Assembly: GCA_021790195.1 (NCBI GenBank)
Contig: JAJYIF010000022.1
Span: 1-59,773 of the forward strand
DNA length: 59,773 nucleotides
DNA from: Nitrospirota bacterium
Lineage (GTDB): Bacteria; Nitrospirota; Thermodesulfovibrionia; Thermodesulfovibrionales; UBA9159
Direction: 5' to 3'
Position 1 is the first letter of the stretch. Each line of letters starts with the position of its first letter. Shown here in pieces: positions 8,260 to 17,058 of this stretch. A program made the position numbers and the translations under genes. Under the pieces are notes generated by a model. That model worked only from the letters and a program-made list of their open reading frames with translations, made no database searches and was not told the DNA's origin.

Positions 8260-9504
8260 ATGTACGGAAAATCCAAAGTACGCCATGAATGTGTGAAATG
8301 CGGAAAGGTCTTTCCCCATTCCTTCATAACGTTCTGTGACGTATGTAACGCAATGATCGATGTCCAGTATGATCTCAGGAAGGTAGTCCTTAACAATTCT
8401 GAAAATACCTTGGAGCGCTTTTTCGATCTCCTGCCTGTCGAGGACTCAGCGCTGCTCCTTAAACAGAAAATGAGCTACACCCCCTGCATCCATGCGAAGA
8501 AGCTCGGAACTCTCTTGGGAATGCCGAAGCTCTATTTCAAGGATGAGAGTGTTCTTCCGACGGGCACTACAAAGGACAGAATGGCTGTTGTTTCGCTCGC
8601 TTTCCTGGCCGAGTGCGGGGTCAGCGCGTTCTGCACTTCATCAACGGGCAACAGTTCTTCGGCCTATGCCCGGGCAATTCAGGGATATCCGGCGCTGAGG
8701 ATGTATCTCTTTACAGCTGAAGATTTCCTGGACAGAGTGCAATTTCAAGCAAGTGACCAGATAGTCCCCTTTGTGTTGAGGGATGCAAGTTTTGTGGAGG
8801 CCTTCAGCTGCGCTGGGATGTTTGCAAAACGTCATCAGTTTGTCTCTGAACGCGGCTTCTTTAATCCGGGCCGACGTGAGGGCCTGAAGCTGACCTTTCT
8901 GGAATCGGTAGAGCAAATACCCGGACAGATCGACTGGTATGTCCAGGCGGTTTCGAGTGCGATGGGGGTGTACGGTGTTTATAAGGGAGCCCGTGAACTC
9001 CTTCTTTTGCGTCGCTTATCCAGCTTGCCTCATCTTTTGTGTGTGCAGCAGGATACCTGCGCACCTATGGTTCGGGCGTTCCACGATGAATCCGAGGTAA
9101 TTCGAAGGGAGGATATCGTCCAGAAGCCGTCCGGCATTGCGAAGGCGATCCTGCGCGGCGATCCCTCCAGGGTTTACCCATACATACGTAAGATTGTCAT
9201 CGAAAGCAACGGGACTTTTGTGGTTGTGAGCGAATCGGAGATACGGGATGCGCGGCGAATGCTGGAAGAGTACGAAGGGCTGTCTCCAAGTTTCTCGGCT
9301 TCCGCCGCCTTTGCGGGCCTTTTGCAGAAGGTCAAAACAGGGACCTTTCCCCGCAGCGATACCGTGCTCGTCAATCTCACCGGAGGGAATCGGCAGCCGT
9401 TTGACGCTGCACTGAATGTGCACTGGCTGCGTCGGTCAGGCGACAGTTGGGAGCCCGAGGATCTTCACGACCTTGTGGCGCAGCAACTGTGGAAAGAACA
9501 TTGA
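8260..9504 (+). CDS. threonine synthase-like PLP-dependent enzyme (fold type II)
   Basis: 414 residues. An N-terminal zinc ribbon (C11, C14, C26, C29) leads into the tryptophan-synthase-beta fold: LYFKDESVLPTGTTKDRMA places the Schiff-base lysine at K105, CTSSTGNSSSAYA near residue 128 is the phosphate-binding loop, and the C-terminal VNLTGGNRQP ends the active site. Threonine synthases convert phosphohomoserine to threonine; several sequence departures (for example STGNSSSA) and its place between a LarA-like gene and an adenylating synthetase suggest a specialised beta- or gamma-replacement in a secondary pathway. It is the middle gene of a tight operon (gaps of 19 and 13 bases). Confidence 0.8.
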   Translation: MYGKSKVRHECVKCGKVFPHSFITFCDVCNAMIDVQYDLRKVVLNNSENTLERFFDLLPVEDSALLLKQKMSYTPCIHAKKLGTLLGMPKLYFKDESVLPTGTTKDRMAVVSLAFLAECGVSAFCTSSTGNSSSAYARAIQGYPALRMYLFTAEDFLDRVQFQASDQIVPFVLRDASFVEAFSCAGMFAKRHQFVSERGFFNPGRREGLKLTFLESVEQIPGQIDWYVQAVSSAMGVYGVYKGARELLLLRRLSSLPHLLCVQQDTCAPMVRAFHDESEVIRREDIVQKPSGIAKAILRGDPSRVYPYIRKIVIESNGTFVVVSESEIRDARRMLEEYEGLSPSFSASAAFAGLLQKVKTGTFPRSDTVLVNLTGGNRQPFDAALNVHWLRRSGDSWEPEDLHDLVAQQLWKEH

Positions 9505-9517
9505 GGAAAAGGCGGAA

Positions 9518-12184
9518 ATGACCTCGAACGGCTTTAAGGATCCGCGGCAAGAGATGCCCGATGATTGGCGCATCCGCACCGCAATCGCCTCAGACTTATT
9601 CGCAGAAGAGGACATTGAACAGTCTATTTCGTCTCGTTTTGAGAAAATAGCAGACACATATTCCGGCCGCACTGCAGCCTTCAGCGCGCATGGTGAAATG
9701 AGCTACGATGCCCTTAATAGTCTGGCGAACCGGATTGCGTGGGCAGTAATTTCACAGTCTACCCAAGAGGCCAACCGGGTCGCGCTGCTCTTTAAACATG
9801 ATATCACTTCTCTATCGGCGATGATTGGAGTACTGAAGTCCGGCAATGCCTATGTCCCGATAGACCCTTCCTATCCCGCGCAAAGGATACGCTACATCCT
9901 GGAAGATTCTCAGGCGACATTAATTCTTAGCCAGGGAAATACCCTTGCGCTTGCTGAAAGTCTTGCTGCGGGGAGCTGTAGGGTTCTAAATGTCGACGCT
10001 TTGTGCAGCACTCTGTCAGATAGAAACCCTTGCCAGCATGTCTCTCCTGATTCTATCGCCTACATTATTTATACGTCAGGCTCAACCGGCAAGCCCAAAG
10101 GGGTGATCCAGACTCATCGCAACCTGCTCCACTTTATCAGCAGTTACAGCAACAGCATCGGCATCACCCCGGCTGACCGTCTATCTCTTTTGCCTTCGCT
10201 GAGCTTCAGCGCATCCCTAATGGACATCTATGGAACCCTGCTGAACGGTGCAAGTGTTCATCCATACAACGTCAAAGAAGAAGGCTTGGCAGGACTTGCC
10301 CATTGGCTCGCGAAGGAAAAGATCACAGTTTACCATTCGGTTCCGACGCTGTTCCGCCATTTCACGGACACTCTGAGTCGTGATCAACTTTTTCCGAATC
10401 TCCGGCTGATCGATTTAGGAGGCGAGCCCGTTTCCAAGAAGGACGTGGACCGCTTCAAGAAGCATTTTTTCAGGGATTGCGTTCTTGTCAACCATATGGC
10501 GTTCACTGAGGCGAGTGTTGCAGCCCAGTACTTTATTGATCACCGATCTGAAATATCCGGTGCCATAGTGCCAGCGGGATACCCGGCCAAAGGAATAGAG
10601 CTATCTTTGATCGACGAAACAGGCCGGAAGATCGGAATCGGTGAAGTCGGTGAGATTACGGTCAAGAGCAAATACGTAAGCCCCGGGTACTGGCGAAATC
10701 CGGAGCTGACTTCGAAATGCTTTCACCAGGACCCTGACGGGACAGGGGAGCGTGTATACCTGACCGGGGACCTGGGTAGGAAGAATAAGGGCGGCCTTCT
10801 CAAACATGCCGGACGGAAAGACCATCGCATCAAGATGCGGGGACATAGCATAGAACCCCTCGAAGTTGAGGCGGTGATTTCAGAGATCGCTTCTGTGAAG
10901 GAAACAGTCGTGGTAAGTCAGCCCGGTCGTCACGACGGTTCTCTCTTGATTGCATATGTCGTCTTGTTCCCAGAGGAGACAGCGTCAGCGAATGAGCTTC
11001 GAGCCCATCTTAAAGAGAACCTCCCTGATTACATGATTCCCTCGCGGTTTATTTTCCTCGGCGCCATGCCGACCACGCCGAGCGGTAAAATCGACAGAAG
11101 TGCTTTACCGGCGCCAGAGCATGAACTGCCGGAATCAGGAGAGGTGTTGACACTGCCGAGGAGTCCACTAGAAATCAGACTTGCAGAAATGTGGACCGAT
11201 GTCCTGGGGGTGAAGTGTTCCGGCGTCAAGGATGACTTTTTCGATTTAGGTGGGGATTCGCTGGCAGCGACCATCCTTTGCATAATGATCGAGGAGGAAT
11301 ACGGACAAAGACTCTCGCCTGCAATTCTTTATCAGTCGCCTACCATCGAACAGCTTGCAGCTGTCATTGCAGGAGGCAGCGAGTCAGGATCCGGTACCGG
11401 TGTAATCCCCCTCAGGCGAGGAGGCCATAGGCCCCCCCTATTCCTTCTTTCGAGTGTCGAAGGTGATTCCATCATGTTCAGGCATCTTGTAAGGTACATA
11501 GACTCAGAACAACCCATTTATGGAGTTAATATTTCGGCAGATGACTTTCACGCGACAATGGACGATGTGGTATCGCGTTATATGGGCGAGATCTGTAGAA
11601 TCTCACCGGCTGGCCCTTTCTTTCTTAGTGGTTTTTCATCTGGAGGGGTTGTTGCTTTTGAAATTGCCCGACGGCTTCGCGCACAGCATTATGAGGTAAG
11701 ATTCCTGTCGATGCTAGATACAGTCTGCCCAACATATTCTAAAAGACTGCATCCTTTGTGGAATATCATTACGGTAAGCAACTTTCTTACAAATCTGCCG
11801 TTCTGGTTCTATTACAGGTTGATCGCAACTGGCGAAAAGAAGCTGAAAATGCGGCGTCTCTTTAAAGACTTTATCGCCCGCAGACCCGGAATTAGCAACG
11901 AGTCCTGCAATGCGTCGCGCAATGTAGTTCAGGAAAGTATTAGGTGGCTGCGAGATTATATTATTGCGCCCTATGACGGACGCATTGTATTCTATCGGGC
12001 GAGGGCAAGACTGTTAACGGTAGTCTCAGATCTTGACAGAGAGTGGGAAAAGTATTCACAAGGGGTGGATGTCCATACTGTTCCGGGGTCTCATCTTGAC
12101 ATATTAAGAGAGCCCTATGTCAGGGTGCTCGCTGAGAAAATCAATGCAGAACTTCAAAGGTTTTTTGAAAATCACAGACAGTGA
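9518..12184 (+). CDS. single-module NRPS-like protein: adenylation, carrier, thioesterase
   Basis: 888 residues from the ATG at 9518, which follows a GAGGAAAAGGCGGA ribosome region; a longer frame from 9416 would overlap the previous gene. Adenylation domain about 40-535: A3 YTSGSTGKPKG 185-195, A8 region GRKDHRIKMRGHSIEP, catalytic lysine K524. Carrier domain about 550-620 with phosphopantetheine serine S581 in FFDLGGDSLA. Type I thioesterase about 640-888 with nucleophile S707 (GFSSGG), D734 and a C-terminal PGSHLD histidine. There is no condensation domain. In the A4 motif, where amino-acid-activating domains have FDxS with the amino-binding Asp, this protein has FSAS (S231), so the substrate is probably not an alpha-amino acid. 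A-T-TE proteins are known to join activated alpha-keto acids. Confidence 0.85.
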   Translation: MTSNGFKDPRQEMPDDWRIRTAIASDLFAEEDIEQSISSRFEKIADTYSGRTAAFSAHGEMSYDALNSLANRIAWAVISQSTQEANRVALLFKHDITSLSAMIGVLKSGNAYVPIDPSYPAQRIRYILEDSQATLILSQGNTLALAESLAAGSCRVLNVDALCSTLSDRNPCQHVSPDSIAYIIYTSGSTGKPKGVIQTHRNLLHFISSYSNSIGITPADRLSLLPSLSFSASLMDIYGTLLNGASVHPYNVKEEGLAGLAHWLAKEKITVYHSVPTLFRHFTDTLSRDQLFPNLRLIDLGGEPVSKKDVDRFKKHFFRDCVLVNHMAFTEASVAAQYFIDHRSEISGAIVPAGYPAKGIELSLIDETGRKIGIGEVGEITVKSKYVSPGYWRNPELTSKCFHQDPDGTGERVYLTGDLGRKNKGGLLKHAGRKDHRIKMRGHSIEPLEVEAVISEIASVKETVVVSQPGRHDGSLLIAYVVLFPEETASANELRAHLKENLPDYMIPSRFIFLGAMPTTPSGKIDRSALPAPEHELPESGEVLTLPRSPLEIRLAEMWTDVLGVKCSGVKDDFFDLGGDSLAATILCIMIEEEYGQRLSPAILYQSPTIEQLAAVIAGGSESGSGTGVIPLRRGGHRPPLFLLSSVEGDSIMFRHLVRYIDSEQPIYGVNISADDFHATMDDVVSRYMGEICRISPAGPFFLSGFSSGGVVAFEIARRLRAQHYEVRFLSMLDTVCPTYSKRLHPLWNIITVSNFLTNLPFWFYYRLIATGEKKLKMRRLFKDFIARRPGISNESCNASRNVVQESIRWLRDYIIAPYDGRIVFYRARARLLTVVSDLDREWEKYSQGVDVHTVPGSHLDILREPYVRVLAEKINAELQRFFENHRQ

Positions 12185-12631: not shown

Positions 12632-12679
12632 GAGGATGACGGCAATCGACAAAGAATTTTAGCCGAAAAGGAGATGCAT

Positions 12680-13264
12680 ATGTCGGCAGAGCTGGAAATT
12701 GTACTTCGGGATGTAGAACCTTACGAAGAGCCGGTCAGGGCCGCTATAAACGAGAAGTTTGCGAAGCTCGAAAGATTCAGCGGCGATATTATGGGATGCC
12801 GTGTCGTAGTGGAGGCCCCGCACCGGCACCGCCGGGAGGGCAGGCTCTTCCATGTAAGGATAGACCTGACGCTGCCCGGCAAGGTGGTCGTAGTGGACCG
12901 GGAGCCCCATGCGCATGTCGCCCATGAAGATATCCATGTGGCTGTCAGGGACGCCTTTCGCGCTGCGCGGCGCAAACTCGAGGACAGGGTGCGCCTCCTG
13001 CGCAGGGAGGTCAAACTGCACGAGACGCCTCCGCAGGGCTTTGTTTCCAAGATCTTCCCGAAAGACGGCTACGGCTTCATCGGGACGCCGGACGGGAGAG
13101 AGATCTACTTTCACAAGAACAGCGTCCTCGATGACGCATTTGCAAGGCTCGCAGCGGGACGCAAGGTCTCTTTCTTCGAGGAGGAAGGCGAGAAGGGGCC
13201 CCAGGCCAGCACGGTCAGGCTGCTTAAGAGGGGCCGCTCCAGGAAAGTTACAGAGCAAACCTGA
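12680..13264 (+). CDS. ribosome hibernation factor (HPF/RaiA, S30AE) fused to a cold-shock domain
   Basis: 194 residues. The ATG at 12680 is chosen because AAGGAG at 12668-12673 leaves six bases; an ATG at 12674 would abut it. Residues 1-110 match the S30AE domain (EPVRAAINEKFAKLERF, then the basic VEAPHRHRREGRLFHVRIDL strand pair and AVRDAFRAARRKLEDRV helix), which blocks the ribosome decoding site in resting cells. Residues about 117-185 are a cold-shock domain: GFVSKIFPKDGYGFI is RNP1-like and EIYFHKNSVL is RNP2-like. The fusion points to ribosome silencing plus RNA binding under stress or cold. It stands alone with its own promoter, beside the broken stress-protein gene. Confidence 0.9.
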   Translation: MSAELEIVLRDVEPYEEPVRAAINEKFAKLERFSGDIMGCRVVVEAPHRHRREGRLFHVRIDLTLPGKVVVVDREPHAHVAHEDIHVAVRDAFRAARRKLEDRVRLLRREVKLHETPPQGFVSKIFPKDGYGFIGTPDGREIYFHKNSVLDDAFARLAAGRKVSFFEEEGEKGPQASTVRLLKRGRSRKVTEQT

Positions 13265-13308: not shown

Positions 13309-14253
13309 TCATCCTCGTACACACCGCGGGTCAGGGGCGTCGAGGTCTCCACTGACCAGGAGGCTCACCGCGGGACATCCCCCCCGGCAGAAGGAATGTA
13401 GACGACATCTGGCGACCGGGCAGTTGTTCTTCCGGAATTCCCTGAAATAACTCAGGACCGGACTTCTCATGATTGTCCCGAAATCTTCTGTGAGGATATT
13501 TCCGAGCATGAATTCCCTGTTCCGGATGAACAGATAGCAGGGATAGACGGAGCCGTCAGGGAGTATCGAAACCTTGGTTGCACCGGCAGGACATCTCGCA
13601 TGTTCAGGAAGCGGCCGGTCTTCTCCGGAGATGAAGCCCTGACAATATACGCCATCCAGGTTCGGGTATCTGTTCTTCAGGGTCTGAAGCCGCATGAAGA
13701 ATTCGTGGAACGGGACCGTGGTGATGAGATCGCTGCGAAAGACCGCGTCCCGGTATAAGAGGCGGTACTCCATACCCGATTCGACATACTCCCTGGCGGT
13801 CCCGGGGACATTTACGTTTTCGGTGCATACACTCTTCAGGAGCGGACGACAGCTTGTGATAAATTCGTGAAGCGCCCGCGGGACCTCTCCATGGAGGGAT
13901 ACGCCGATCACAAGGACTTCGGTCCCGTATGATCTTGCAAGATGTGTCAACAACCCGGTGTTCGAACCGTTCGAGCTGAGAAAGACCTTGATGCCGCGCC
14001 CTGTAGCGAGTCCGATTAGGCGGGTGAGATCGGGGTGGAGGGTCGGCTCTCCTCCGAGGATATCGAGCTCGCGGACCCCCGCGCCCGCAATCGCTTCGAT
14101 GAGTCTTTGGTAATTGGAGACGGATATGTCAGGATCGGACCGATATCCCCTGTTGAAACAGAAATCACAAGACCTGTTGCACTCTGTAGTGGGAAGAAGC
14201 TGCACGAACTTTGGATAGTCAAAAGACTCTGTCAAGAACATCTCTGATCTCAT
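13309..14253 (-). CDS. radical SAM / SPASM-type protein
   Basis: 314 residues. CNRSCDFC (C25, C29, C32) binds the radical SAM [4Fe-4S] cluster; DILGGEPTLHP is the SAM-binding GGEP loop. The C-terminal third has a SPASM-like cysteine set: ARCPAG, VYPCYLF, NCPVARCRLHSFCRGGCPAV and PRCVRG. Such proteins modify peptides or act as oxidoreductases. Its start overlaps the end of the Cys-rich gene upstream by 35 bases, so the two are cotranslated. An alternative ATG lies 12 bases downstream (MFLTES). It is divergent from a second radical SAM gene with a precursor peptide, so the pair may serve one pathway; that link is inference. Confidence 0.85.
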   Translation of the reverse strand: MRSEMFLTESFDYPKFVQLLPTTECNRSCDFCFNRGYRSDPDISVSNYQRLIEAIAGAGVRELDILGGEPTLHPDLTRLIGLATGRGIKVFLSSNGSNTGLLTHLARSYGTEVLVIGVSLHGEVPRALHEFITSCRPLLKSVCTENVNVPGTAREYVESGMEYRLLYRDAVFRSDLITTVPFHEFFMRLQTLKNRYPNLDGVYCQGFISGEDRPLPEHARCPAGATKVSILPDGSVYPCYLFIRNREFMLGNILTEDFGTIMRSPVLSYFREFRKNNCPVARCRLHSFCRGGCPAVSLLVSGDLDAPDPRCVRG

Positions 14254-14569
14254 CCATAGTGACCGTCTCTGTGCGTAGAAGGGCGCTCAGCGCAAGGAAG
14301 CCGCCGCAGGGCGGGGCGTCGCCCTCTTTGAGGATATAGTCGCAATCCCCCGGATGGAAAGGGCAGCGCAGGCACACCGTCTCCACAAGCAGCTCCTCAT
14401 CATCAGCCGCCCTTCCAGCGCCTTGTGAAAATACCGGATAGCCGCGCTTGGCGAACAATGCTTCAGCTACGAGAAATCCCAGGCATGAGAGGTCTTCGTT
14501 CTTCCCCGGCTTGTAATAGACGCAAAACTTTCGGCAGAGTTCCCTTGACCGAGCTCCCTTGTCTCCCAT
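14219..14569 (-). CDS. small Cys-rich protein, partner of the radical SAM protein
   Basis: 116 residues from the ATG at 14569; a TTG six bases upstream is the alternative. Seven cysteines: RELCRKFC, LSCLGF, TVCLRCPFHPGDC and PPCGGF, a spacing that suggests metal or iron-sulfur binding. No named family recognised. The -10 box TATAAT ends five bases before the ATG and there is no Shine-Dalgarno, so the transcript is probably leaderless. It overlaps the radical SAM gene downstream, which suggests a stable protein pair. Confidence 0.65.
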   Translation of the reverse strand: MGDKGARSRELCRKFCVYYKPGKNEDLSCLGFLVAEALFAKRGYPVFSQGAGRAADDEELLVETVCLRCPFHPGDCDYILKEGDAPPCGGFLALSALLRTETVTMDEIRDVLDRVF

Positions 14570-14574
14570 ACTCA

Positions 14575-14604
14575 ATTATACCAGCGAAGGCGATGACTTA
14601 TAAT
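14575..14604. promoter_or_regulatory. back-to-back divergent leaderless promoters
   Basis: Two consensus TATAAT boxes face away from each other: 14580-14575 on the minus strand and 14599-14604 on the plus strand. Each ends exactly five bases before its gene's ATG (14569 and 14610). Each box lies where the other promoter would have its -35 region, so both probably compete for one polymerase footprint. Neither gene has a Shine-Dalgarno. Confidence 0.6.
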
Positions 14605-14609
14605 AAGAG

Positions 14610-15737
14610 ATGATCTATTTCCTTTCTGAGAAGTCGGTCCTCAGGCGGATCGAGAGCCCGTCTGTGTACCATATAAAAAAAGACGAGCTTTACGAGCTCG
14701 ACGAAGAGGGCCTTTCGTTTTTGAGCAGATGCGCCTCCCCTTCCGGCTGCAGTTCAGAAAGAAATGAATTCATCGACTACTGCCTCTCGGAGGGGATATT
14801 GACTACAGAGCCGGTCTTGGCGCGGCGTCCCCCTCTCATGCAGTCTTTATTCCCTTCACTCAGATATCTAGAGCTCCAGATCACGGATAAGTGCAACCTC
14901 AGTTGCCGGCACTGTTATATCGGCGGCAGAGGGAAGTCGGAGCTCCCGGCTGCGCAGATAGGAAAGGCGCTTGCGGAATTCGAAGAGATGCAGGGGCTGA
15001 GGGTCCTGATCACAGGCGGTGAGCCCCTTTTGCACAGCAGGTTCCGCGAGATCAATGAGCTTCTGAGCGGCTTCTGTGTGAGGAAGGTCCTTTTTACAAA
15101 CGGGACGATGCCGGACAAAAGGGTCATTCGCGACCTTCACGTGGACGAGGTCCAGGTCAGTATCGACGGCCTCGAAAGGGCCCATGAGGCGTTGAGGGGC
15201 AGAGGGACCTTCGGGGCCGCAATCGAATCACTGAGACTCGCGCGGGATTCGGGGTTGGAGGTTTCGGTCTCCACGATGGTCCATCCCGGCAACCTTCAGG
15301 ACTTTGACGGGATGGAGGAGCTCTTTCAAGAACTGGGGGTGAAAGACTGGACAGTCGATATCCCGTGCGTTACAGGGAACCTGAAAGACAATGCCGAATT
15401 CCAGGTAGCCCCGCAGGAGGGCGGAAGGTTTCTAGCCTATGGTTCCTCAGGGGGCATACATGGGAGCGCCCCGGGCTTCGGCTGCGGCCTTCATCTGATG
15501 TGCGTCACGTCCGGCGGATTCGCGGCGAAATGCACCTTTTACGGCGACAGACCGCTCGGCAGAATTGAGGAGGGTCTCGGTGTGTGCCGCGCGAGAATGA
15601 GACCGGTCAGGCTCGGGGATTTGAAATGCGACTGCGCGCACATAGAGAGCTGCAGGGGCGGATGCAGGTTCAGGGCCGAGCTTCTGGGCGATCCGCTGGG
15701 CAAGGACCTCTACAGGTGCAAAATGCTGCTGTCGTGA
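14610..15737 (+). CDS. radical SAM/SPASM peptide maturase with N-terminal PqqD-like recognition domain
   Basis: 375 residues. Residues 1-70 resemble a PqqD-type precursor-binding domain (VLRRIESPSVYHIKKDELYEL, then EEGLSFLSRC and EGIL). The radical SAM core follows: CNLSCRHC (C95, C99, C102), LITGGEPLL and SIDGLERAHEALRG. The C-terminus carries a SPASM cysteine set (GFGCGL, LMCVTS, AKCTFY, KCDCAHIESCRGGCRF, YRCKML). Enzymes of this build bind a short precursor leader and crosslink or epimerise its core. A 20-residue Cys-rich peptide gene starts 55 bases after the stop and is the probable substrate. Leaderless start at 14610. Confidence 0.9.
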   Translation: MIYFLSEKSVLRRIESPSVYHIKKDELYELDEEGLSFLSRCASPSGCSSERNEFIDYCLSEGILTTEPVLARRPPLMQSLFPSLRYLELQITDKCNLSCRHCYIGGRGKSELPAAQIGKALAEFEEMQGLRVLITGGEPLLHSRFREINELLSGFCVRKVLFTNGTMPDKRVIRDLHVDEVQVSIDGLERAHEALRGRGTFGAAIESLRLARDSGLEVSVSTMVHPGNLQDFDGMEELFQELGVKDWTVDIPCVTGNLKDNAEFQVAPQEGGRFLAYGSSGGIHGSAPGFGCGLHLMCVTSGGFAAKCTFYGDRPLGRIEEGLGVCRARMRPVRLGDLKCDCAHIESCRGGCRFRAELLGDPLGKDLYRCKMLLS

Positions 15738-15743
15738 TATAAT
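15738..15743 (+). promoter_or_regulatory. internal -10 box before the precursor peptide gene
   Basis: TATAAT directly follows the maturase stop codon. No clear -35 is visible. It would give a leader of about 43 bases and let the small peptide be made in excess over its enzyme, as is common for such systems. Confidence 0.4.
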
Positions 15744-15792
15744 CTTTGTGATCATCGGATAAGACACACGGGCATGATGAAAGGAGGACACA

Positions 15793-15855
15793 ATGAAGAT
15801 AAAGAAGGTATCGAGAAAGCTTTCTCTGACCTGCAAGTGTAAGAGCTCCTGTTAA
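15793..15855 (+). CDS. 20-residue Cys-rich precursor peptide of a radical SAM-modified product
   Basis: The ATG at 15793 follows an excellent Shine-Dalgarno (AAGGAGG, 15781-15787) and the frame stops at 15853-15855. The product divides into a basic leader, MKIKKVSRKLSL, and a C-terminal core, TCKCKSSC, with cysteines at 14, 16 and 20. Its size, tail-end cysteines and position directly after a PqqD-SPASM radical SAM maturase match the general layout of ribosomally made, thioether- or otherwise crosslinked peptides. I recall short Cys-rich peptides paired with such maturases in Geobacter-type genomes, but cannot confirm membership. Export or protease genes are not adjacent. The mature function is unknown; a CxC metal-binding role is possible. 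Confidence 0.75.
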   Translation: MKIKKVSRKLSLTCKCKSSC

Positions 15856-15863
15856 GTAAGATC

Positions 15864-16148
15864 CTACCAGGACAGATAAAGGGCAAACCATAATAGACAG
15901 CCTGCCACTGCAAGGCCTTTCTCAAGACTGTTCAGTCTGTTCCCTTTAAAGATGAAATAAATGCTGAGCGGCGAGGTGAGAAAGCAGGCCGTAATATAAA
16001 CCCACTTAGGCAGGACGTCCCTTCTCTTCGCCTCCGGGAAAAGAGAGCAGAACGGACATTCGATCTCGTTTTCGAGCCGGTGTCCGCAGCGGACGCACCT
16101 GACTATTCCCAGAACCTCGTCGATCTTCTCCTCGTCCATGTCTTCCAT
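15864..16148 (-). CDS. zinc-ribbon membrane protein of unknown function
   Basis: 94 residues. An N-terminal zinc ribbon, CVRCGH then CPFC, is followed by two hydrophobic segments (VYITACFLTSPLSIYFIF and AVAGCLLWFALYL). The arrangement, a cytoplasmic zinc ribbon tethered to the membrane, is common and mostly uncharacterised. Its stop lies nine bases from the stop of the convergent peptide gene. A TATACT box is visible upstream, about 17 bases before the ATG. No function is claimed. Confidence 0.65.
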   Translation of the reverse strand: MEDMDEEKIDEVLGIVRCVRCGHRLENEIECPFCSLFPEAKRRDVLPKWVYITACFLTSPLSIYFIFKGNRLNSLEKGLAVAGCLLWFALYLSW

Positions 16149-16183
16149 CTTTGCTTAATCGATAGTATAACTTTTTGCGCAGG

Positions 16184-16846
16184 TCACTTCTTTACACCGT
16201 CAGGCAGGCGTTCTTTGAAAGCGTTTCCCACGGTTATTCCTATTCTCGTTCCTATGATCGCGCCTGCAACGAAATCCGAGAACCAGTGGATCGTCATAGA
16301 AACGCCCACGCCTACGTAAAGGGCATAGAGCAGGGCTAAGGTCCGCGCAGCCTTGCTGTCCGGATACAGCTTCCATATAGCAGCAGCGACTGCGCACGCC
16401 ACGGTGGTATGCGAAGACGGCCACCCGAAAAAGACCCCGCCCTTCAGGAACCCGAAATGAAACTCCTTGCTGGTATCGATCAGCGTGACAATCGCGTGTC
16501 TCGGCCCCGGCCTTCCTGTGAAGGCCTTGTAGAATGAAGAAATGAAAAGACCGATAATGGCTGCCTGGGCCGTAGAATAAGCGGCGCAGATCGCGCGCGG
16601 CTTCTTGCGAATAGAACCTGATAAATATAAGACCAGCGGAAGGACCATCGGCGTATACCATCCCACGATAACGGCCGGGAAGAGATACACGGCAAACGGT
16701 CTGGTAGCTTTAAGATATGCCCAGTCGAGGTCGGACCTGACGATAAATACCGTGGCGGCGATCGCAAGAACATGCCACGGCAGGTTGCGTCCCCAAAAGG
16801 ACCGGAGGATATTGCGCGGCAGCGTGCGGAAAAAGTACCGCATCAT
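16184..16846 (-). CDS. PAP2-family membrane phosphatase
   Basis: 220 residues with five or six membrane segments. The three phosphatase motifs are present: KAFTGRPGPR (KxxxxxxRP-like), WPSSHTT (PSGH variant) and VSMTIHWFSDFVAG (SRxxxxxHxxxD variant with Met for Arg-adjacent positions). The family dephosphorylates lipid phosphates such as undecaprenyl pyrophosphate or phosphatidic acid on the outer face of the inner membrane. Its ATG overlaps the stop of the small upstream gene by four bases (ATGA). Substrate not determinable from sequence. Confidence 0.85.
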   Translation of the reverse strand: MMRYFFRTLPRNILRSFWGRNLPWHVLAIAATVFIVRSDLDWAYLKATRPFAVYLFPAVIVGWYTPMVLPLVLYLSGSIRKKPRAICAAYSTAQAAIIGLFISSFYKAFTGRPGPRHAIVTLIDTSKEFHFGFLKGGVFFGWPSSHTTVACAVAAAIWKLYPDSKAARTLALLYALYVGVGVSMTIHWFSDFVAGAIIGTRIGITVGNAFKERLPDGVKK

Positions 16847-17058
16847 GAGAAAGCCCTCGACAGTCGAGTCGCTCCGCGCGCGAGGGCTGTCTTTTCGATG
16901 TCGAATAGACCCAAGAAAAGCAGCTTCGCGCCAAGTCGCAAAGAACGAAGAGTAAAGTCAAATGGTCTTGAAATCACGCGTTTCACCCAATTGTCTTTCT
17001 TCATCATATATCCTGCTTCCAGGACCCTGCGTGTTTGCGCTTGAATGTCTGTGTTCAT
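16843..17058 (-). CDS. small basic protein cotranslated with the PAP2 phosphatase
   Basis: 71 residues from the ATG at 17058 (MNTDIQAQTRRVLEAGYMM), chosen because the longer open frame to 17229 lacks a ribosome site and runs into the MFS promoter area. It has 12 or so Arg/Lys residues and one amphipathic or hydrophobic stretch (LGAKLLFLGLFDIEKTAL). Its stop overlaps the phosphatase start in ATGA, which supports it as a real operon member. No family recognised. Confidence 0.5.
   Translation of the reverse strand: MNTDIQAQTRRVLEAGYMMKKDNWVKRVISRPFDFTLRSLRLGAKLLFLGLFDIEKTALARGATRLSRAFS

Follow-up and report, generated by a model that had tools for sequence, protein, structure and literature searches.

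The described systems closest in fold to the enzyme reported here are the thioether-forming radical SAM/SPASM maturases, namely SkfB with its substrate SkfA, those of other sactipeptides, and CteB and the enzymes of the SCIFF peptides (ranthipeptides). Shared features include an N-terminal domain predicted to fold as a winged helix, a radical SAM core, a SPASM-type auxiliary region and a cysteine-containing precursor. However, SCIFF precursors are ~45 aa long with six cysteines, compared with 19-20 aa and three cysteines here, and the maturase does not reach the TIGR03974 cut-off. The precursor in the present system is also often encoded far from its enzyme, which differs from both sactipeptides and SCIFF peptides.

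A second group, SuiB/SuiA (streptide) and PqqE/PqqD/PqqA, also combines a very short precursor with a SPASM radical SAM enzyme of similar overall fold. PqqE uses a separate PqqD (PMC8326336). The crosslinks of streptide and PQQ are carbon-carbon bonds between non-cysteine residues, whereas the conserved core here is cysteine-based. The SuiA and PqqA precursors are ~22-24 aa long. A preliminary description of the locus, made from the sequence alone, proposed that its product would be among the smallest of its class; the 19-20 aa of the family compare with those lengths. MNIO (DUF692) enzymes produce bufferins, methanobactins and oxazolins, which are cysteine-based modified copper peptides; a Sec signal peptide is present in bufferins (PMC12452194). 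The present system does not qualify as one of these, its enzyme being a radical SAM protein rather than an MNIO, and its peptide has no signal peptide. GeoRSP (TIGR04303) is likewise a family of radical SAM/SPASM proteins whose role in peptide modification is uncertain, but the maturase scores only 68 bits against its cut-off of 400.

The locus lies in a stretch of 59,773 nucleotides from a Nitrospirota bacterium, referred to below as the window. The enzyme gene and its parts are as follows.

14610-15737, forward strand: radical SAM/SPASM maturase, 375 aa (Pfam Radical_SAM, PF04055, E 1.6e-20, and fold)
14610-14804, forward strand: N-terminal domain, residues 1-65, inferred RRE-like winged helix (AF2 secondary structure)
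14892-14915, forward strand: radical SAM motif CxxxCxxC, C95/C99/C102, invariant in 55 orthologues
15483-15719, forward strand: SPASM-type auxiliary cluster region, C292-C308-C340-C342-C348-C352-C370, cysteines invariant or at least 90% conserved

Of 346 Nitrospirota genomes, 106 carry an orthologue of the maturase, with identities of 43-63%; in a set of 61 related genomes, 43 have one at E < 1e-100. PF04055 is matched by all 55 orthologues compared. The seven cysteines are conserved in SPASM order, although the Pfam SPASM model is only weakly detected, in three of the 55. The radical SAM/SPASM core proposed in the preliminary description therefore held. No NCBIfam or Pfam model is specific to the maturase, and filing it in a known NCBIfam equivalog family was rejected, as every cut-off was missed by a wide margin.

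The AlphaFold2 model of the maturase (pLDDT 92.2, pTM 0.90) predicts the fold of a peptide maturase. The nearest PDB folds are SkfB (E 2.5e-14), SuiB (6e-13; structures by itself, bound to SAM and together with its peptide) and CteB (2.6e-11), all of them RiPP maturases, and structural alignments to the thioether-forming ones give 13-18% identity. In the model, residues 1-65 form strands at 2-5, 9-13, 17-21 and 26-29 and helices at 32-41 and 53-60, a predicted arrangement consistent with a leader-recognition winged helix. The label PqqD-like has only this predicted fold, and the whole-chain match to RRE-bearing enzymes, in its favour, with no support from sequence: Pfam PqqD matched none of the 55 orthologues, a phmmer search with the N-terminal domain alone found no PqqD similarity, and when the domain was compared by hhalign with 14 PqqD domains of related genomes the probability was ~1%. 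The enzyme-peptide complex was modelled as a read-through fusion across the maturase stop at another locus, L184, which carries a related maturase with its own peptide. The cysteine core was left unplaced (pLDDT ~39) and the leader half, at ~69, was given only weak to moderate placement. A short strand was predicted at peptide residues 3-5, its pairing partner not being resolved.

Downstream of the maturase is a frame of 20 codons, with an ATG at 15793 and a stop codon (15853-15855) directly 3' of the final cysteine codon.

15793-15855, forward strand: precursor peptide MKIKKVSRKLSLTCKCKSSC, 20 residues; member of a family of 109 distinct CDS under codon-level purifying selection
15793-15828, forward strand: basic leader, residues 1-12, with I3 and K5 near-invariant in alignments
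15829-15852, forward strand: core TCKCKSSC, residues 13-20, with C14, K15, C16, S19 and C20 invariant and a cysteine always last
15780-15787, forward strand: ribosome-binding site AAAGGAGG, 5 nt 5' of the ATG; an SD-like core is present at 110/110 family copies
15738-15743, forward strand: TATAAT, a possible -10 element directly 3' of the maturase stop, without a -35 partner and not above chance

The short frame, ribosome site, basic leader, TCKCKSSC core and three cysteines of the preliminary description were all confirmed. Its internal -10 box after the maturase gene remains weak: the TATAAT is there, no -35 partner was found for it, and promoter-like matches were as frequent as expected from shuffled sequence. 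A search of the region 14000-17000 for RNA features gave no Rfam match.

Homologous coding sequences were collected into a set of 109 distinct CDS, encoding 103 distinct peptides. Their length is nearly always exactly 20 codons, with 19 codons in one lineage, and some genomes use a GTG start. The frame recurs after or near maturase orthologues and always ends in CKC[KH]x[S]C-stop. C14, K15, C16, S19 and C20 are invariant across the set, with I3 and K5 nearly so. Mean entropy at codon positions 1, 2 and 3 is 0.69, 0.62 and 1.42 bits. An SD-like core lies upstream of all 110 peptide copies examined, the background at random positions being 23%; a strict SD core precedes 100 of the copies, against a background of 7.7%. 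The variation at third positions, the invariant core and the upstream ribosome sites show that the gene at 15793-15855 is translated and subject to purifying selection.

The peptide is not represented by any model in NCBIfam or Pfam, and no description of the system was found in the open-access literature searched, which left most subscription journals out of scope. The family, found in more than 100 Nitrospirota genomes, appears to be undescribed. A scan of genome contigs for members outside Nitrospirota, which relied on single-sequence patterns, returned loci titled Nitrospirae, Nitrospira or Thermodesulfovibrionales and one 'uncultured bacterium'. Spread by mobile elements was rejected: plasmids carried neither the peptide nor a maturase orthologue, their best matches, at 24-36% identity, being other radical SAM proteins. 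Two pattern matches in IMG/VR lay behind an in-frame stop and outside the usual context, and were put down to chance. At eight loci (L082, L087, L100, L104-L107 and L109) a lone CKCK peptide adjoins a gene for a TPR-like protein followed by ispE; this neighbourhood, divergent in one case, is seen in several lineages and appears to be an old syntenic position.

The preliminary description would have been refuted had the short frame not been conserved after orthologous maturases. This check was run and the refutation failed: of the first 50 loci with an orthologous maturase, ~30 have the peptide directly after it, and in most of the others it is encoded elsewhere in the genome. A peptide profile was searched over whole genomes, so that unlinked copies were counted, and located peptides distant from the maturase, in many cases on a separate contig. 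Among the 346 Nitrospirota genomes, 104 have both genes, 234 neither, two the maturase only and six the peptide only (table [[104,2],[6,234]]; Fisher p 3e-78, ignoring the relatedness of genomes). In the set of 61 relatives 58 genomes are concordant, a figure which label shuffles within families reach once in 20,000, and four families (f3, f4, f8 and f13) are each mixed, some of their genomes having both genes and others having neither.

Exceptions to this pattern are few. A peptide without a detected maturase was recorded in G016, G019, G263 and G281, two of which (G019 and G263) have completeness ratings of 99-100%. Of the other peptide-only calls, that in G203 is a marginal match, and in G285 maturase fragments lie beside the peptide at a contig end. 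The maturase was found without a peptide in G273, in G089 (at a contig end) and in G001. The G285 contig (locus L133) carries two CKCK peptides 1.5 kb apart, each after a C-terminal fragment of the maturase, possibly a duplication or an assembly artefact at the contig end.

A small precursor genetically tied to its enzyme, with a leader and a conserved core, is what is expected of a radical SAM RiPP system, and is present here. The proposal that maturase and short peptide form the basic unit of a ribosomally made modified peptide is supported by conservation, co-occurrence and fold. We consider it likely that 15793-15855 encodes the precursor of such a peptide, that the upstream gene encodes its maturase, and that the product is an intracellular thiol ligand or redox peptide; translation, conservation, co-occurrence, fold class and copper context rest on the data, and the substrate relation, the crosslink chemistry and metal binding are inferred.

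A second subtype of the peptide, CKCHxSC, escaped the preliminary description. It is a paralogue carried by some genomes, the window's own genome having the CKCK form only. Counting only copies with enough flanking sequence, 25/29 CKCH copies lie within 5 kb of copper-resistance genes, compared with 3/79 CKCK copies, which show no copper link (Fisher p 3e-17, relatedness ignored). Where flanks are complete, copper genes are near 12 of 14 CKCH copies but only 2 of the 40 windows used as controls (p 2e-8). The Pfam families beside CKCH copies include a copper-type P-type ATPase with YHS and HMBD domains, a multicopper oxidase, YtkA-like and outer-membrane efflux proteins and MerR, as well as a YHS-linked pyridine nucleotide-disulphide (thioredoxin-reductase-like) oxidoreductase and Met-rich secreted proteins. 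Nearly all CKCH-bearing genomes also have the maturase, G016 being the clear exception. Some CKCK loci lie amid genes for superoxide dismutase-like proteins, rubrerythrin and nitroreductase; this redox-island context (7/43 against 0/40 controls, p 0.012) is suggestive but weak.

Met-rich secreted proteins of a 'GMMGPGMM' type, mostly without a clear Pfam family, are encoded directly 3' of CKCH peptides at L101, L102, L110, L121 and other loci. At L129 two identical CKCH peptides (4970 and 6777, forward strand) share one copper cluster, each followed by a different Met-rich secreted protein.

The copper neighbourhood of the CKCH copies would also suit a rival explanation, in which the tiny peptide stays unmodified and works like a metallothionein, its CxCxxxC thiols binding Cu(I) or a different soft metal, while the maturase has another target in the same metal or redox pathway. 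A CxC pair with a third cysteine and an optional histidine is a natural set of ligands for soft metals. Nevertheless, we think this unlikely: maturase and peptide occur nearly one-to-one, within families too, the peptide directly adjoins the maturase in many genomes, and the enzyme has the fold of peptide maturases.

Alternatively, the frame could be a regulatory leader (uORF), in which translation of the cysteine codons or metal binding by the nascent chain controls a downstream gene, as in copper-sensing uORFs. In favour of this, a same-strand ORF lies within 250 bp downstream of 24/28 CKCH and 41/76 CKCK copies, and CKCH copies often precede Met-rich secreted proteins. In the window, however, the downstream gene (15864-16148) is on the opposite strand, convergent and 9 nt from the peptide gene, which makes the latter the last gene of its unit and not the leader of a downstream gene. 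A convergent gene follows 25/76 CKCK copies, the window's included, so the frame is not always upstream of a gene on its own strand as a leader should be. The downstream genes are unrelated between genomes, the strict dependence on the maturase is left unexplained, and I3 and K5 are conserved in the leader, far from the cysteine codons. A purely regulatory role is hence very unlikely.

Under the preferred reading, a modified precursor peptide, the N-terminal winged-helix domain of the enzyme would probably bind the basic leader (M1 to ~L12), and the radical SAM and SPASM iron-sulfur clusters would modify the invariant core TCKCK[S/G]SC. The most likely chemistry would be thioether formation at Cys14, Cys16, Cys20 or several of these, favoured because the nearest folds with cysteine substrates make thioethers. 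A sulfur-to-carbon crosslink like that of sactipeptides and ranthipeptides is inferred only from the cysteine core and the fold neighbours. No protease or exporter gene recurs beside the peptide, so the modified product probably remains in the cell, where it may serve as a compact thiol ligand for a metal or as a redox peptide. The CKCHxSC paralogue would probably be a copper-responsive version, with the same single maturase serving both. A role in metal or thiol redox handling is likely, supported by the copper context of the CKCH form; neither a modification nor metal binding has been observed.

A further rival is that the peptide is a scaffold on which a small cofactor or natural product is assembled by the maturase and later cut free, as for PQQ, mycofactocin and pearlins. 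The core-genome-like distribution, with one maturase per genome, recalls cofactor systems, and the C-terminal cysteine is invariant. Against this, no protease, oxidase or tailoring genes recur beside the peptide, and what is invariant is not a single residue but the entire CKCxxSC block. We rate this as very unlikely, without excluding it.

In a bolder reading of the precursor model, a single core-genome maturase of Nitrospirota makes two intracellular metallopeptides, the CKCK form for housekeeping and the CKCH form in copper islands. We rate this as less likely than not. If true, the system would be to radical SAM enzymes what the copper RiPPs are to MNIO enzymes, one enzyme would act in trans on products of unlinked genes, and the precursors, at 19-20 aa, would be among the smallest known.

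Radical SAM RiPPs are a known kind of system, and the present one differs in the size of its precursor, its frequently unlinked precursors, its core-genome-like spread in the phylum and its copper-linked paralogue. The family is an unannotated one in at least two classes of a phylum with apparently few described peptide natural products, and resembles core machinery, unlike a patchy antibiotic cluster. A gene of 19-20 codons, often unlinked, is likely to escape gene-cluster mining and ordinary gene calling, exposing a blind spot of the two; the earlier expectation that gene finders would skip it is thus judged likely to hold. Through the CKCH paralogue, peptide chemistry of the radical SAM kind is connected with copper handling, which the literature found links only to MNIO enzymes. 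Both enzyme and peptide are small enough for direct expression and testing.

On the other side of the maturase, a divergent gene encodes a candidate partner.

14219-14575, reverse strand: small Cys-rich protein, 118 aa, conserved beside the maturase

This protein occurs beside the maturase in ~20 distinct loci at 31-43% identity, with a conserved pattern of C-x3-C, C-x2-C, CD and CGG. It has no Pfam or NCBIfam match, and could possibly be a third component of the system. Also beside the maturase is a second radical SAM/SPASM protein of 314 aa (13309-14253, reverse strand). Copies ~50% identical to it adjoin the maturase at L006 and L008, and copies of ~33-36% identity lie near the peptide at L035, L038 and L081. 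Further upstream, a threonine-synthase-like gene (8260-9504, forward strand) precedes a gene for an NRPS-like protein (9416-12184, forward strand), whose adenylation, carrier and thioesterase-type parts were judged by eye; the two may form a separate small biosynthetic unit. They are followed at 12674-13264 (forward strand) by a gene whose product joins two domains, one like a ribosome hibernation factor (Pfam S30AE) and one of the cold-shock type (Pfam CSD).
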